64,000 nt of DNA, taken from positions 1 through 64,000 of the forward strand of contig JAKCDU010000018.1 of assembly GCA_021838445.1 (NCBI GenBank). The letters run 5' to 3'. Shown piece by piece: positions 1,647 through 18,066 of the stretch (positions are counted from its first letter, which is position 1; each line of letters starts with the position of its first letter). The DNA is from Actinomycetes bacterium. Its GTDB lineage: Bacteria > Actinomycetota > Acidimicrobiia > Acidimicrobiales > Palsa-688. The position numbers were made by a program, and so were the translations under genes. A model generated the notes under the pieces. That model was not told the origin of the DNA and did no database searches. It was given only the letters and a program-made list of their open reading frames with translations.

Positions 1647-4226
1647 GTGGGCCTTTCTGCCGATCGTCCTCTAGAGCCAGACGAGGTGTCGCCGACATCT
1701 CGTCCGGGTAAGCGACTCCCACCTACGGTCTCCCTCGTCGTCGGCGGCGTTGCCGTCCTCGCCGGCGTGTCGGTGCTGTTCGTCGGCGATCTCCACGGAC
1801 CGTCCGAGCCGGCCGCTCTCCCCTGGGTCTTTCTGGTTTCCCTCGCGCTGTTCGGTGCTACCCGACTTCCAATCAGGTTGCCCATCGGCATGGACAGCCT
1901 CCACGTGGACTTCTCCCCCGTCCCGACGCTCGTCGGAGCAGCCCTGTTCTCGCCGCGAAACCTGGCTTTGGGAGTCCTCTTGGCCTATGTCTGCGACTAC
2001 GGCCTCCGGCGTGGACCAGCTATCAGGGCCTTGTTCAATACGTCCAATGCGATCCTCGGCGCCTGTGCTGCGTCCGCCGTCTTCTCTGCGCTCGACGGGA
2101 CGAGCACACCCAAGTCGCTGTGGATGTGGCTGGCTGTGCTTGCCGGGGATTACGCCCTGGAGATCGTCACCGGTCTTGGGGCACTCGCCGTGATGTCGGT
2201 GACGGGCGCCCCCCTTGGCAGGGCCTACCTCCGGCAGATGGGTATTCAGACCGCCGTGCTGCCTTTGATCACCTCAGAGCTGGCAGTGGTCGCGCTTTCC
2301 TGCTATTTCACTGTTCCTCTCGCCTTGGTGGCCTTGGCTATTCCATGTTTCGGACTTGCCTGGTGGTATTCGAGCTCCGAGAAGCTGAGGAACAGATTTC
2401 GCGACCTGCAGTCGCTGTATCAGTACAGCCAGTCCCTCTCGGACGCCAGCGAGAGGGAGGACATCCTTACCATCGCTTTACGGGAGACCACCAGGGTCCT
2501 GCATTGCCAACGGGCCGAGCTCTGCCTCTCCGGGCCCGAAGGACTCGTCAGGTTCCGGCTGGGTGAGTCCGGGCGACTGAGCGAGCAGCTGACTCAGTGG
2601 GAGGGTGCGGAGCGGCTCGTGCTCGAAACCCAAGAACCGGTGCGGTTCACCCACTCCGAGCGCAATGAGTACCTCATCGACCGGCGGCTCAAGGATGCCA
2701 TGATCACGCCCTTGACGGTCGGAGGTTCCCGATCGGCCGTCCTCGTGGTCGCCAACCGGGACGGCAGCGAGGCGACCAGCTTCGAGCGTGAGGATCTCGG
2801 CTTCTTCCAGGCGCTGGCGGCCCACTTGGGAACGGCCCTGACGGCGTCGGAGCACCTGGACCACCTGAGGCGGTCGGTCGCCGAGCGTGAACATCAGGCC
2901 TACCACGACGCTTTGACCGGTTTGGCCAACCGGACGCTGTTCATGAACGTCGTGGCCAAAGCCCTCGAGCACGGTGGGGGCACCCGCATGGTCGCCGTGG
3001 TGCTCATGGACCTCGACGGTTTCAAGGAGATCAACGACGCCCTCGGTCATCACACCGGTGACGAGGTGCTCAAAGTGGTCGCCCAGAGGGTCAGCACAGG
3101 TGTGCGCGAGTACGGCCTGGCGGCGCGGCTCGGCGGCGACGAGTTTGCGTTCATGGTGGGCGCTGCGGCGAGCGTCGACGAGGTGCTCTCGATCACCGAG
3201 AAGCTGATGGCCTCGGTCGGAGCGCCGATGGACATCGGAAACGTGGCCCTCACGGTCCGGGCCAGCGTCGGTATCGCCCTGGCGCCGGTCCACGGTCTGG
3301 ACGCCCCGACCCTGCTCAAGAAGGCCGACGTCGCCATGTACTCGGCCAAGAGCTCTTCCCGGCGTATCAGCGTCTACGACCGTTCGATGGATAACTCGTC
3401 GGCCCGCCGACTGGCCCTGGCCACCGATCTGGGCAAGGCCATCGAGCACGACGAGCTCGACCTGTGGTTCCAGCCGGTGGCCGACATGGCCTCGGGCCGG
3501 GTTGCGGGCTTCGAGGCCCTCCTCCGCTGGCCCCACCCGGCCCTCGGGTTCATCCCCCCCGACGAGTTCATCCCCATCGCCGAGCAGACCGGCCTGATCG
3601 AGCCGCTCACGTGGTGGGTGGTCAATCAGGCCCTGAGTGAGTTGCGCCGCTGGCGCGACGACGGGTTCGAGTTCGACATGGCCATCAACTTCTCGGCCCG
3701 CAGCCTGCTCGACCCGGCCATGGTCGACCACCTCCGCGCCATGGTGTCGAGTTTCGACCTGACCCCGAGCGCCATCACGCTGGAGATAACCGAGTCGTCG
3801 ATGATGGTCGAGCTGGAGCGTTCCGAGGCGGTGTTGCGCCGGCTGTCCGACATGGGTTTCCGGATAGCCATCGACGACTTCGGGACCGGCTACTCGTCGC
3901 TGTCACGCCTGAAGGTCCTGCCGGTCCACGTGCTGAAGATCGACCGGGCCTTCGTCAAGAACATCACCTTCGACAAGGGCGATCAGGCCATAGTCAAGTC
4001 CATCATCGAGCTGGCCCGGGTCATGGACCACCAGATCGTCGCCGAGGGCATCGAGGACCTCCAGACCTGGAGCCGGTTGGCCTCTCTCGGCTGCGACCTG
4101 GCCCAGGGCTACTACTTCGCCCGGCCCATGCTGGCCCGGGACTGCCGGCGGTGGGTCCTCGAGCGCCAGGGTCCCAACCTGGCCCCGGTGAGGTCGCTCA
4201 ATCTCAGAGTCGTCGACGGAGGCTGA
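1647..4226 (+). CDS. Membrane-anchored GAF-GGDEF-EAL c-di-GMP turnover protein
   Basis: Hydrophobic N-terminus, GAF-like region, RLGGDEFAFMVG (intact GGDEF) and GFEALLRWPHP (intact EAL), DDFGTGYSSL; GTG start. Confidence 0.92.
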   Translation: MGLSADRPLEPDEVSPTSRPGKRLPPTVSLVVGGVAVLAGVSVLFVGDLHGPSEPAALPWVFLVSLALFGATRLPIRLPIGMDSLHVDFSPVPTLVGAALFSPRNLALGVLLAYVCDYGLRRGPAIRALFNTSNAILGACAASAVFSALDGTSTPKSLWMWLAVLAGDYALEIVTGLGALAVMSVTGAPLGRAYLRQMGIQTAVLPLITSELAVVALSCYFTVPLALVALAIPCFGLAWWYSSSEKLRNRFRDLQSLYQYSQSLSDASEREDILTIALRETTRVLHCQRAELCLSGPEGLVRFRLGESGRLSEQLTQWEGAERLVLETQEPVRFTHSERNEYLIDRRLKDAMITPLTVGGSRSAVLVVANRDGSEATSFEREDLGFFQALAAHLGTALTASEHLDHLRRSVAEREHQAYHDALTGLANRTLFMNVVAKALEHGGGTRMVAVVLMDLDGFKEINDALGHHTGDEVLKVVAQRVSTGVREYGLAARLGGDEFAFMVGAAASVDEVLSITEKLMASVGAPMDIGNVALTVRASVGIALAPVHGLDAPTLLKKADVAMYSAKSSSRRISVYDRSMDNSSARRLALATDLGKAIEHDELDLWFQPVADMASGRVAGFEALLRWPHPALGFIPPDEFIPIAEQTGLIEPLTWWVVNQALSELRRWRDDGFEFDMAINFSARSLLDPAMVDHLRAMVSSFDLTPSAITLEITESSMMVELERSEAVLRRLSDMGFRIAIDDFGTGYSSLSRLKVLPVHVLKIDRAFVKNITFDKGDQAIVKSIIELARVMDHQIVAEGIEDLQTWSRLASLGCDLAQGYYFARPMLARDCRRWVLERQGPNLAPVRSLNLRVVDGG

Positions 4227-12957: not shown

Positions 12958-13299
12958 ATGACGAATTCCGACATGGACGGAGGCCCGCTCCGGCCGCCTA
13001 CCGATGACAGCGTAGGGGTGCCGCCCGTCCCCGTCGCCTCGCATGGCGCCGATGCTGGTCCCGTCGTCCGCCTGCTGCTGTTCGCGGCGGCCCGCCAAGC
13101 CGCCGGCACCAGCCAGGTGGAGGTCGTCGCCTCCACCGTCGGGGAGGTCCTGGAGCAGGCCCGGAGCCGCTTCGGCCGTACTTTCTCCGAGGTCCTCGAC
13201 GGGTCGCGGGTCTGGCTCAATGGGGAGCCCTCCGAGCTGACGGCCCCTCTCCGCGGCGGCGACGAGGTGGCGGTCCTGCCCCCGGTGTCAGGTGGCTGA
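12958..13299 (+). CDS. MoaD/ThiS-family protein
   Basis: VRLLLFAAARQAAGTSQ...LRGGDEVAVLPPVSGG, C-terminal GG. Confidence 0.88.
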   Translation: MTNSDMDGGPLRPPTDDSVGVPPVPVASHGADAGPVVRLLLFAAARQAAGTSQVEVVASTVGEVLEQARSRFGRTFSEVLDGSRVWLNGEPSELTAPLRGGDEVAVLPPVSGG

Positions 13300-14182
13300 G
13301 GCCGTGTCGGTGGCCCCCTCCCCGGCCCGCCGCCCCCGACCGCCCCGGGGCCAGGCGTCGACCCGGTCGGGCGCCGCCGCCCCCCGGGCGCGCTCGGGGA
13401 TCAAGCGGCGGGTAACGACGCGACCGGTCCGGGCTGTGGTCCCGGCCGCGGCCGGGTTGGTCTGGGCCCTGGCCCTGCTCGGCGCGGTAGCCGCCTCTTC
13501 GCTCCTGACGGCACTGGTGATGCTCCCGGTGGCGTTGCTGGCCACCGCCACCGGTATCCGCGCCACCGAATCGAAGCGCAAGAAGCGCTCCCACCGGCCC
13601 TCCACGCTGCTCCTGGTGGCTCTGGCGGTGTGCGTCGTGGACCCCGTGGCGGCGCTCGGGGGACCGCTCGTCGGCCTAGCCGTGGGGCTGGCGTCGGCCG
13701 GGGCGTTGGCGGTGATGGTGATGGTGTCGGTGTTCACCGTGTCGGTTCGTCCCGCCCGGACGGCCGCCTCCCGGCTGCTCGTGGTGCTGGCTCCGGCATC
13801 GGCGGCGACGGGACTGGTGCTGGCCCGCCATCAAGGTTCGACCCTCGCCCTGTTCCTCGTTCTGGCCGTCCTGGCCTACGACGTGGCGGCCTTCGTCATG
13901 GGTAACGGGCGCAGCGCCTGGGGGGGGCCGGTGGGCGTCGGTTTCGCCGCGGTTGGCGTGGCGGTAGTGGCGGTGTTCGCCTCGGCCATCCTGGACCCTC
14001 CCATGTCGGGGTCGAGGCCGTGGCTGATGTTTGCCGTGCTGGCCGCCGCCGCTTTCCTCGGCGTCCGCCTGTGCCAGTGGGCCGTGGGCGCCCAGCGTCT
14101 GCCGGCCCTGCGCCGGTTGGACTCCCTGTCGGCGGCCGCCCCAGCGTGGTTCGTGATGGCCGCCGTGGTGCTCCACCGCTAG
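13292..14182 (+). CDS. Polytopic membrane protein, possibly CdsA-like
   Basis: Multiple hydrophobic segments; YDVAAFVMGNGRSAWGGPVGVGFAAVGV weakly resembles the CdsA signature; starts within the MoaD-like ORF. Confidence 0.6.
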   Translation: MAEAVSVAPSPARRPRPPRGQASTRSGAAAPRARSGIKRRVTTRPVRAVVPAAAGLVWALALLGAVAASSLLTALVMLPVALLATATGIRATESKRKKRSHRPSTLLLVALAVCVVDPVAALGGPLVGLAVGLASAGALAVMVMVSVFTVSVRPARTAASRLLVVLAPASAATGLVLARHQGSTLALFLVLAVLAYDVAAFVMGNGRSAWGGPVGVGFAAVGVAVVAVFASAILDPPMSGSRPWLMFAVLAAAAFLGVRLCQWAVGAQRLPALRRLDSLSAAAPAWFVMAAVVLHR

Positions 14183-14234: not shown

Positions 14235-14762
14235 ATGGCTCAGCTTTCGGAAGTCACCGAACCGGGGTTCCTCGAGGGTCTGGAGGTGTGGCCCATCGAG
14301 CAGGTGCGGGTCCATCGCGAGACGGCGACGGCGCTCGAGACGGCGCTGTCGTTCCTGCGCCGCATGACCCAGGGTCGGCTCGACATCGTCCTGGCCGAAC
14401 GCGATCAGCGGGCCAGCGGTCAGCCCGCCGACCTGCACGACCTGGTCGAGCGGCTACCGAGCATCCTGAGCGGCAACGTCCACGCCCCCGGCGCCGGACG
14501 CCTTTCCGCGGTGTTCGCCCCCGGCGGGGCCGAATCCGGTCTCGAAGAGGACTTGGAGGAAATCCTCCCCTCCGGCCGGATCGGCTCCCTGCCCGACCTC
14601 TCCGATGAGGAGCTCGACGAGGTGGCCGGCCGGCTCACCGAGTTCGAGCACACGGTGTCGGCGCGGCGGCGCGCCGTGCTCGACGTGCTCGACCGCTTGC
14701 AGGACGAGATCGTTCGGCGTTACCGCACCGGCGAGGCGACGGTAGACACTCTGTTGTCGTGA
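14235..14762 (+). CDS. rsiG: RsiG-like c-di-GMP-binding anti-sigma factor
   Basis: Helical protein with exact E(X)3S(X)2R(X)3Q(X)3D at residues 35-50 (ETALSFLRRMTQGRLD) and near-copy at 138-153 (EHTVSARRRAVLDVLD); neighbours are XRE, mshA, proC. Confidence 0.75.
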   Translation: MAQLSEVTEPGFLEGLEVWPIEQVRVHRETATALETALSFLRRMTQGRLDIVLAERDQRASGQPADLHDLVERLPSILSGNVHAPGAGRLSAVFAPGGAESGLEEDLEEILPSGRIGSLPDLSDEELDEVAGRLTEFEHTVSARRRAVLDVLDRLQDEIVRRYRTGEATVDTLLS

Positions 14763-14934
14763 CCGGGACCGGCCCACCCCGCTTGGTCCTGGTGGTCGAC
14801 GACGACGGGATGACCCCCAGGCCGTGCCGGTGCTCGACGCCGAGGCCCGGCCGGCGCGAGCCGGCGCTTTGCTCCCCGAGCCCTCAGCGCCTTTCGAGCT
14901 GCTCGAGTTCGTCGGGGAGATGATCGCGCTGTGA
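14759..14934 (+). pseudogene. Small coupled ORF with apparent -1 frameshift (about 58 aa if corrected)
   Basis: GTG at 14759 overlaps the upstream TGA; VTGTGPPRLVLVVDDDG continues in the -1 frame as DDPQAVPVLDAEARPARAGALLPEPSAPFELLEFVGEMIAL, ending at TGA 14932-14934, which overlaps the XRE start. Confidence 0.45.
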
Positions 14935-15365
14935 CCTCGGTCTTCCCCGACCCCTGGCGGGAGCTCGGCGAGTTCATCCGCGAGCAGCGTTCGGTGGCCC
15001 GGCTCTCGGTCCGGCGGCTGTCCGACATGGCGGGTATCTCGAACCCCTACCTGAGCCAGATCGAACGAGGTCTGCGGCGGCCCTCGGCCGAGATCCTCCA
15101 GCAGATAGCCAAGGCCCTCGAGCTGTCGGCGGAGACCCTCTACGTGAGAGCCGGGATCCTCGACGCCAAGGAACCGGGTGGTGACCTGACCGAGGCCATC
15201 CTCGCCGACCCGCACCTGAACGCCGAGCAGAAGCACACCCTTCTGCGCATCTACACGTCGTTCCGCCGCGAGCACACCGATCCCGATGAGGGCCGCCCGG
15301 GCTCGCCGCCGTCGACTCCCCGGCCCGACGACGCGGTGATCGGCCCGGTAGGTGATCAGACGTGA
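14931..15365 (+). CDS. XRE-family HTH regulator
   Basis: VARLSVRRLSDMAGISNPYLSQIERGLRRPSAEILQQIAKAL. Confidence 0.92.
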   Translation: MTSVFPDPWRELGEFIREQRSVARLSVRRLSDMAGISNPYLSQIERGLRRPSAEILQQIAKALELSAETLYVRAGILDAKEPGGDLTEAILADPHLNAEQKHTLLRIYTSFRREHTDPDEGRPGSPPSTPRPDDAVIGPVGDQT

Positions 15366-16627
15366 CCCCCCGGCGCCTGGGCATCCTGTCCATGCACACG
15401 TCCCCGCTGGCCCAGCCGGGCACCGGCGACGGGGGAGGGATGAACGTCTATGTCCGGGAGCTGGCCACCGCACTGGCCCGCTCCGGTGTCGAATGCGAGG
15501 TGTTCACCCGGGCCGAGCGGCCCTCCGACCCGGCCGTGGTGACCGTCGAGCCCGGTTTCCGGGTGCACCACGTGCCTACCGGGCCGCTCGCCGAGGTGGC
15601 CAAGGAGGAGCTCCCCGGCCTGGTCGACGAGTGGACCGAGGCCGTCGGCTGGCGCCTCGAGCGCCTAGAAGCCGAGGGTCGCCCGGTGGCCGCCCTCCAC
15701 GCCAACTACTGGCTGTCGGGCGTGGCCGGTCACCGGCTCAAGCACCGGTTGGAGTTGCCGCTGCTCGTCACCTTCCACACCCTGGACCGGGTCAAGGCCG
15801 ACGCCAGCCCCGAGGCCATCTCCTTCGCCGAGCCGGCCCGGCGGGCGACGGCCGAAGCCGAGATAGTCGGCTGCTCCGACGCCGTCCTGGCGTCGTGTTC
15901 GGTGGAGGCCGACCAGCTGATCGAGCTGTACGGGGCGCCCCCCGAGCGCATCGCCCTCGTCGCACCGGGGGTCGAACACGCCTTCTTCGCTCCCGGTGAC
16001 CAGGTCCAGGCCCGTCGGGCCGTCGGCCTGCCCATCGAGGTGCCGCTGGTCCTGTTCGTGGGCCGCATCCAGCCCCTGAAGGGGCCCTCCCTGGCGGTGG
16101 ACACCCTGGCCGCGGCCCGCCGTTTCGGGGGTCGGGCCGGTCGGGCCTCCTTGGTGCTCGTAGGAGGCCCGAGCGGACCTCACGGCGCCGACGAGCTCGA
16201 CGCCGTCCAGCGCTCCATCGAGCGTCACGGCCTGCAGCGCCAGGTGCGCATACTGGCCCCGCAACGCCACGAAACTCTTTCCACATATTTTCGGGCCTGC
16301 GATCTGTGCCTGGTGCCCAGCCACTCCGAGTCCTTCGGCCTGGTCGCGCTGGAGGCCGCGGCATGCGGACGGCCGGTCGTCGCGGCCGCCGTGGGGGGCC
16401 TCACCACCATCGTTGAGGACGCCCGGACCGGGTTCCTCGTGGACGGCCGAGACCCCGCTGACCTGGCCCGACCCGTGGCGTCGATACTCAACGACGCCGA
16501 TCTGGCGGCCCGTCTCGGCCGCCACGCGGCCCGGTCCTCGCGGGCCTACACCTGGCGTCAGGCGGCCACCGACCTGTGGTCGCGGGTGGTCGAATTGACC
16601 CGTTCCGAGCTGGTCGCCTGCGGGTAG
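15362..16627 (+). CDS. mshA: D-inositol-3-phosphate glycosyltransferase (MshA-like, GT4)
   Basis: GDGGGMNVYVRELATAL... FVGRIQPLKGP... PSHSESFGLVALEAAACGRPVVAAAVGGL. Confidence 0.88.
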   Translation: MTPRRLGILSMHTSPLAQPGTGDGGGMNVYVRELATALARSGVECEVFTRAERPSDPAVVTVEPGFRVHHVPTGPLAEVAKEELPGLVDEWTEAVGWRLERLEAEGRPVAALHANYWLSGVAGHRLKHRLELPLLVTFHTLDRVKADASPEAISFAEPARRATAEAEIVGCSDAVLASCSVEADQLIELYGAPPERIALVAPGVEHAFFAPGDQVQARRAVGLPIEVPLVLFVGRIQPLKGPSLAVDTLAAARRFGGRAGRASLVLVGGPSGPHGADELDAVQRSIERHGLQRQVRILAPQRHETLSTYFRACDLCLVPSHSESFGLVALEAAACGRPVVAAAVGGLTTIVEDARTGFLVDGRDPADLARPVASILNDADLAARLGRHAARSSRAYTWRQAATDLWSRVVELTRSELVACG

Positions 16628-17752: not shown

Positions 17753-17862
17753 GAAGCGAAGCTCGGCTGGTCGGCGGTTGGTGGGGACGGTCTTCGGAGC
17801 CCCGTAGTCCGCTCTTGGCCGGCGATCACGGGTGGCGTACTCTTTGTGAACGGAGAAGGGTG

Positions 17863-18066
17863 GTGCTGCGCGTGCCGAGAATCGAGTCCGAGTCCAGCTT
17901 CGTCACGGTCGCTGAGGTGGCCCGGCTGCTGCGGGTGTCCAACATGACCGTCTACCGGTTGGTCCAGGGCGGTCAGTTGCCGGCCGTGCGGATCGGCCGG
18001 TCGTACCGCATCCGCGAGGCCGACGTGGACCGCTACCTGGCCGACCAGTACACCCAGGCCGGCTGA
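17863..18066 (+). CDS. Excisionase-family helix-turn-helix protein
   Basis: SFVTVAEVARLLRVSNMTVYRLVQGGQLPAVRIGRSYRIREADVDRYL; next to proC as in mycobacteria. Confidence 0.9.
   Translation: MLRVPRIESESSFVTVAEVARLLRVSNMTVYRLVQGGQLPAVRIGRSYRIREADVDRYLADQYTQAG

Follow-up and report, generated by a model that had tools for sequence, protein, structure and literature searches.

A predicted twin-motif RsiG and WhiG-type promoters before pilus, flagellar and GGDEF genes in an Acidimicrobiales genome

Judged from its sequence, the product of the open reading frame (ORF) 14235-14762 is a genuine RsiG, and we consider it likely that it is a functional twin-motif protein whose c-di-GMP switch on WhiG governs pilus, flagellar and GGDEF promoters. 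The predicted outputs of this switch here are pili and flagella, not spores. RsiG-WhiG was described in 2021 as the sole sigma/anti-sigma complex known to be a target of c-di-GMP; its known outputs were spores in Streptomyces and pili in Rubrobacter. The window (the whole stretch of 64,000 nucleotides analyzed) comes from an assembly of 3.99 Mb that is 96% complete. Its nearest named relatives are metagenome assemblies of Acidimicrobiales/Acidimicrobiaceae; judging by these relatives, Acidiferrimicrobium also appears to fall in its family group. The genomes compared in this work are metagenome assemblies.

The RsiG homologue and the fourth residue of motif 2

The Pfam family RsiG (PF22802) matches two stretches of the ORF product (E = 2.9e-19; 68.9 bits compared to a cutoff of 27 bits) and phmmer relates residues 21-174 to RsiG of S. 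venezuelae (6pfj_T, E = 5e-15); the single-motif RsiG entries 7lq2-7lq4 show weak similarity. Therefore, the occurrence of the two motifs in this ORF is not due to chance. The AlphaFold model, a ligand-free monomer based on an alignment of 43 sequences, is an antiparallel coiled coil with one motif per helix (mean pLDDT 84, pTM 0.77). It resembles 6pfv/6pfj in Foldseek (E about 1e-5, TM 0.64-0.74), and no PDB chains other than four of S. venezuelae RsiG match it at E below 0.001. The profile search and the fold comparison proposed in the initial annotation thus both lead to RsiG. Its description of the motifs was also borne out: motif 1 is an exact match to E(X)3S(X)2R(X)3Q(X)3D, motif 2 keeps four of the five residues with Leu149 in place of Gln, and both motifs thus contain the ligand residues E, S, R and D (Table 1). 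The published consensus has Gln or His as the fourth residue in both helices; motif 1 agrees with it (Gln) and motif 2 departs from it (Leu). Since two motif helices lie within 175 aa, the protein does not belong to the single-motif homodimeric class of RsiG.

Table 1. Features of the rsiG locus in the window, and exact WhiG-type sites found in the same genome
Feature	Position	Strand	Basis or remark
rsiG, 175 aa, predicted twin-motif c-di-GMP-responsive anti-sigma factor	14235..14762	+	Pfam, phmmer, Foldseek; ATG start
Predicted coiled-coil helix 1, residues 21-60	14295..14414	+	AlphaFold, block pLDDT 89-93
Motif 1, residues 35-50 ETALSFLRRMTQGRLD, canonical E-S-R-Q-D	14337..14384	+	read directly; within predicted helix 21-60
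Predicted coiled-coil helix 2, residues 124-165	14604..14729	+	AlphaFold, block pLDDT mostly 95-97
Motif 2, residues 138-153 EHTVSARRRAVLDVLD, E-S-R-L-D	14646..14693	+	read directly; within predicted helix 124-165
CTC codon (Leu149), guanine-stacking position in motif 2	14679..14681	+	His/Phe/Leu/Gln among relatives
GAF-GGDEF-EAL protein, possible c-di-GMP source or sink (candidate)	1647..4226	+	EAL 1.1e-77, GGDEF 3.9e-40
XRE-type HTH regulator, conserved rsiG neighbour	14931..15365	+	Pfam HTH_3 7.1e-12
MshA-like glycosyltransferase, conserved rsiG neighbour	15362..16627	+	Pfam Glycos_transf_1
WhiG-type site	41 bp before pilM		exact
WhiG-type site	31 bp before DUF4388-pilB operon		exact
WhiG-type site	91 bp before flhA		exact to refined pattern; TCAAG, not TAAAG
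WhiG-type site	7 bp before tandem-GGDEF gene		exact
WhiG-type site	28 bp before gene of 106-aa protein		exact
WhiG-type site	35 bp before repeat surface protein gene		exact
WhiG-type site	before methyltransferase-like gene		exact

Motif 2 has His (n = 68), Phe (n = 33), Leu (n = 6) or Gln (n = 3) as its fourth residue among 110 aligned RsiG sequences, which include near-duplicates shared between two sources; in motif 1, the fourth residue is Gln (n = 108) or His (n = 2). The remaining motif residues hardly vary: in motif 2, E, S and R are invariant and D is almost so. In a phylum sample, Streptomyces-like sequences have Gln at the fourth position of motif 2 and the others have Leu, Ile, Met, Phe or His, and an aliphatic residue in helix 2 does not evidently go with either Q or H in helix 1; this sample cannot speak for the conservation of the other motif residues since the pattern used for its selection required them. 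In a tree built leaving out the fourth-residue column, and in which several forks are weakly supported, the Leu of the window is nested in a Phe group that itself lies within His, and aliphatic residues were gained at least three times. The codons fit single steps, CAC and TTC each being one base away from the Leu codon CTC. All the genomes that have Leu at this position and a WhiG sequence belong to one genus. The 2021 paper (PMC8325347) mentions Gln/His variation for motif 1 only and does not note this variability of motif 2.

The replacement of Gln by Leu had been proposed to mark a transitional or altered ligand stoichiometry. This proposal is not supported, since the position varies freely and Leu derives from Phe and His. 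Because of this variability and of the repeated aliphatic gains, we rather read Leu149 as a tolerated change of the stacking residue: apparently a recurrent, derived state of the twin-motif RsiG and not an intermediate between single-motif and twin-motif proteins. In the Streptomyces complex, whose RsiG and WhiG contacts to c-di-GMP are described in PMC8325347, Leu149 would take the place of a residue stacking on a guanine. Binding of two c-di-GMP would then be kept through hydrophobic packing at Leu149 and is probably preserved, since motif 2 has lost none of its hydrogen-bonding residues; the affinity could differ, as Leu cannot stack like Gln, His or Phe. Alternatively, Leu149 might disable the half-site formed by motif 2, leading to the binding of a single c-di-GMP or to another stoichiometry and hence to a one-site or weakly responsive switch. 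The contacts described in PMC8325347 lend this some weight, the stacking residue being gone and Leu, Met and Ile being unable to pi-stack. However, a dead half-site would not be expected to keep E, S and R invariant and D nearly so whatever the fourth residue, as found in the 110 sequences, nor to keep the rest of the motif through at least three aliphatic gains (although the pattern that selected the phylum part of the sample required those residues), and we therefore regard this loss as unlikely. Since Q, H, F, L, M or I occurs at the fourth position of motif 2 in clear homologues, this residue does not define the family and Leu does not exclude membership. The motif used to recognize RsiG should be corrected to Q/H/F/L/M/I at this position, as searches that accept Gln and His alone would overlook true RsiG proteins.

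Other motif residues differ in some related sequences. In a related family (f7; L319, L320, L322, L326), the first Glu of motif 1 is replaced by Asp (DDVVSYARRVAQARVD type). Another group (L026, L036, L058, L077) carries Ala at this first Glu and Asn instead of the last Asp of motif 2.

WhiG and its predicted promoters

A search for a WhiG/FliA-type sigma factor, suggested by the initial annotation, retrieved a single WhiG orthologue, the only sigma factor of the genome above the FliA_WhiG cutoff (271 bits compared to 189.6; next best 121). Its gene is located between rpsB and dprA. Within the PDB, the protein is most similar to S. venezuelae WhiG (1.5e-93), and K57, G61 and R62 are kept, leaving the contacts to c-di-GMP intact. 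Together with the family profile and the predicted coiled coil, this partner supports the initial reading of the protein as an RsiG homologue from outside the lineages that sporulate; none of the three refuting outcomes named in the initial annotation was obtained. Among 35 relatives, each at least 90% complete, rsiG and whiG are both present in 30, both absent in five and never found singly (Fisher 3e-6), and the c-di-GMP-contacting Lys, Gly and Arg are kept in 30 of the 30 relatives' WhiG sequences compared. It could be argued that the RsiG-like protein no longer acts on WhiG and has instead turned to another protein, for example the XRE regulator encoded next to it, since rsiG is not adjacent to whiG and its conserved surroundings include the XRE and mshA-like genes. 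The perfect co-occurrence in near-complete relatives and the conservation of the WhiG residues touching c-di-GMP make such a change of partner most improbable.

The WhiG/flagellar promoter consensus given in PMC8325347 is TAAA/GCCGATAA. A first pattern modelled on this consensus, TAAA-N14-16-GCCGATA, matches the genome exactly at two places, including the site 41 bp before pilM. Refined to T[AC]AAG-N14-15-GCCGATA, it gives seven exact matches (Table 1) compared to none for the reversed pattern used as control. Promoters of the TAAA-N-GCCGATAA form thus stand ahead of target genes, as in a WhiG/FliA regulon. The ATPases of the DUF4388-pilB operon carry MshEN domains. Less perfect sites are found before flbD-motA-motB-fliL and fliS (one mismatch) and before a type IV pilin gene (two mismatches); no clear site precedes the flagellin gene, and the pattern scan found no WhiG promoter within the window.

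The 106-residue protein (L290:2323-2643, contig C18 of the same genome) has no Pfam match and is a candidate pilus or motility protein; in each of three genomes (L202, L223, L224), a WhiG-type promoter lies 26-28 bp before it. The GGDEF genes found behind WhiG-type promoters (L291, at C60:9628 of the same genome, and L146, L150, L204, L213, L222, L346) start 7-9 bases past the -10 box, which suggests that this class of WhiG targets has leaderless mRNAs.

The switch mechanism that we infer is carried over, by analogy, from the Streptomyces, Rubrobacter and Actinoplanes systems. High c-di-GMP would arm RsiG to hold WhiG inactive and falling c-di-GMP would release it, allowing transcription from TAAAG/TCAAG-N14-15-GCCGATA promoters. 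Freed WhiG would switch on the pilM and DUF4388-pilB (MshEN) operons for type IV pili and probably flagellar genes, namely flhA and, from weaker sites, flbD-motA-motB-fliL and fliS; the GGDEF gene, as a member of the regulon, could act back on c-di-GMP levels. As these promoters were assigned by consensus alone, another sigma factor might read the pilus and flagellar ones, the RsiG switch then controlling something else. This seems quite unlikely because TAAA/GCCGATAA is the WhiG/flagellar consensus published in PMC8325347 and because WhiG alone of its class exceeds the family cutoff in this genome.

Control by WhiG remains the preferred reading, and its pilus part is also borne by the relatives: 18 of the 31 genomes compared have a site with at most two mismatches upstream of pilM, its distance to the gene varying rather little, compared to 0.05 expected from shuffles. 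Among 71 distinct promoter matches in the family, 24 precede homologues of the regulon of the genome studied or other GGDEF proteins, compared to one on the opposite side, and 47 are without assigned target. Further regions add DUF4388 and GGDEF cases behind WhiG-type sites and, by inspection, a prepilin-peptidase-like gene in one relative. Exact flhA sites occur in two genomes only, and the evidence for flagellar targets is thinner than that for pili. No site was found upstream of rsiG (0/28) or whiG (0/30).

The genome encodes FlhA, FliD, FlgK and FlgL (Pfam) as well as flagellin and MotA/B, recognized by inspection. The FlgM-FliA pair resembles RsiG-WhiG in that an anti-sigma factor restrains a flagellar-class sigma factor. 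FlgM is exported through the flagellum and its sequence is unrelated to that of RsiG. Unlike in that system, a profile search found no FlgM in this genome, a result in which a protein so short could be missed in a metagenome assembly. Given the WhiG-type promoters before pilus and flagellar genes and the lack of a FlgM match, pili and flagella are probably expressed according to c-di-GMP through this switch. A broader proposal, to which we give even chances, is that in flagellated Acidimicrobiaceae devoid of FlgM a twin-motif RsiG replaces the usual flagellar anti-sigma factor, c-di-GMP gating flagella and pili directly with a GGDEF feedback loop, and that the aliphatic helix-2 residue is tolerated with the second ligand kept.

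A cluster of promoters in the related assembly G046 was considered as a flagellar locus and rejected, as the contig carries phage structural genes. This contig (C7, L340-L345, 115.7 kb) encodes phage tape-measure, portal and head proteins and has nine exact WhiG-type promoters, compared to none in 30 trials of a first-order random model. In seven of the nine, an ATG lies 7-8 bases after the -10 box, which suggests that these transcripts lack a leader. The contig yielded no WhiG homologue and the G046 assembly none above the cutoff; therefore, the true host may be another bacterium. Viral contigs scanned for the leaderless WhiG-type promoter mostly have one match each, which chance could explain since the collection is so large.

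Relation to known systems

The presence of twin-motif RsiG in Acidimicrobiales has already been published (three of four species in PMC8325347). This protein is thus an added member of a known family. The open-access literature searched gave no targets of Acidimicrobiales RsiG and, as a single paper in it joins Acidimicrobiales, WhiG and c-di-GMP, the predicted regulon and the variability of motif 2 appear undescribed in this literature.

The system studied shares with that of Streptomyces (S. venezuelae) the twin motif, full-length similarity, the predicted fold and a WhiG partner with the three c-di-GMP contact residues. It differs by (i) the helix-2 stacking residue, Leu instead of Gln, and (ii) its predicted targets, which are pilus, flagellar and GGDEF genes instead of spore genes. 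According to PMC8325347, WhiG promoters also precede type IV pilus and dgc/pde genes in Rubrobacter radiotolerans, whose complex is (RsiG)2-(c-di-GMP)2-WhiG (PDB 7lq2-7lq4). However, its RsiG is a single-motif homodimer, whereas the protein studied here is twin-motif, and no flagellar target is given for the Rubrobacter switch in the sections read, whereas flagellar targets are predicted here. As proposed here, the WhiG-like sigma factors of Actinoplanes are WhiG-class factors for type IV pilus and flagellar genes, but Actinoplanes is devoid of RsiG (PMC8325347). If the proposed switch is confirmed, a further class with a twin-motif RsiG tied to pili, and probably to flagella, would link the Streptomyces and Rubrobacter cases, which suggests that surface motility could be the older role of RsiG-WhiG.

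Genomic surroundings of rsiG

The initial annotation had pointed to a GGDEF-EAL protein about 10 kb upstream as a possible supplier of the signal. This protein is real, with both GGDEF and EAL motifs intact, but nothing singles it out as the source since the genome has 19 GGDEF matches. A special link with rsiG was therefore dropped, the conserved neighbours of rsiG being the XRE and mshA-like genes. Among 80 related loci, the XRE gene lies within 2.5 kb of rsiG on the same strand in 55, and the mshA-like gene lies 3′ of rsiG, on the same strand and within 2.5 kb, in 70. Directly upstream of rsiG, a membrane protein gene (window 13292-14182, +) with a sub-threshold CTP_transf_1 match adjoins rsiG in 19 of the 80 loci. 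About 3 kb downstream, a small HTH_17 protein (window 17815-18066, +), which we take to be of the BldC type, is encoded near rsiG in 33 of the 80 loci; two relatives of Streptomyces developmental regulators would thus lie together in this lineage.
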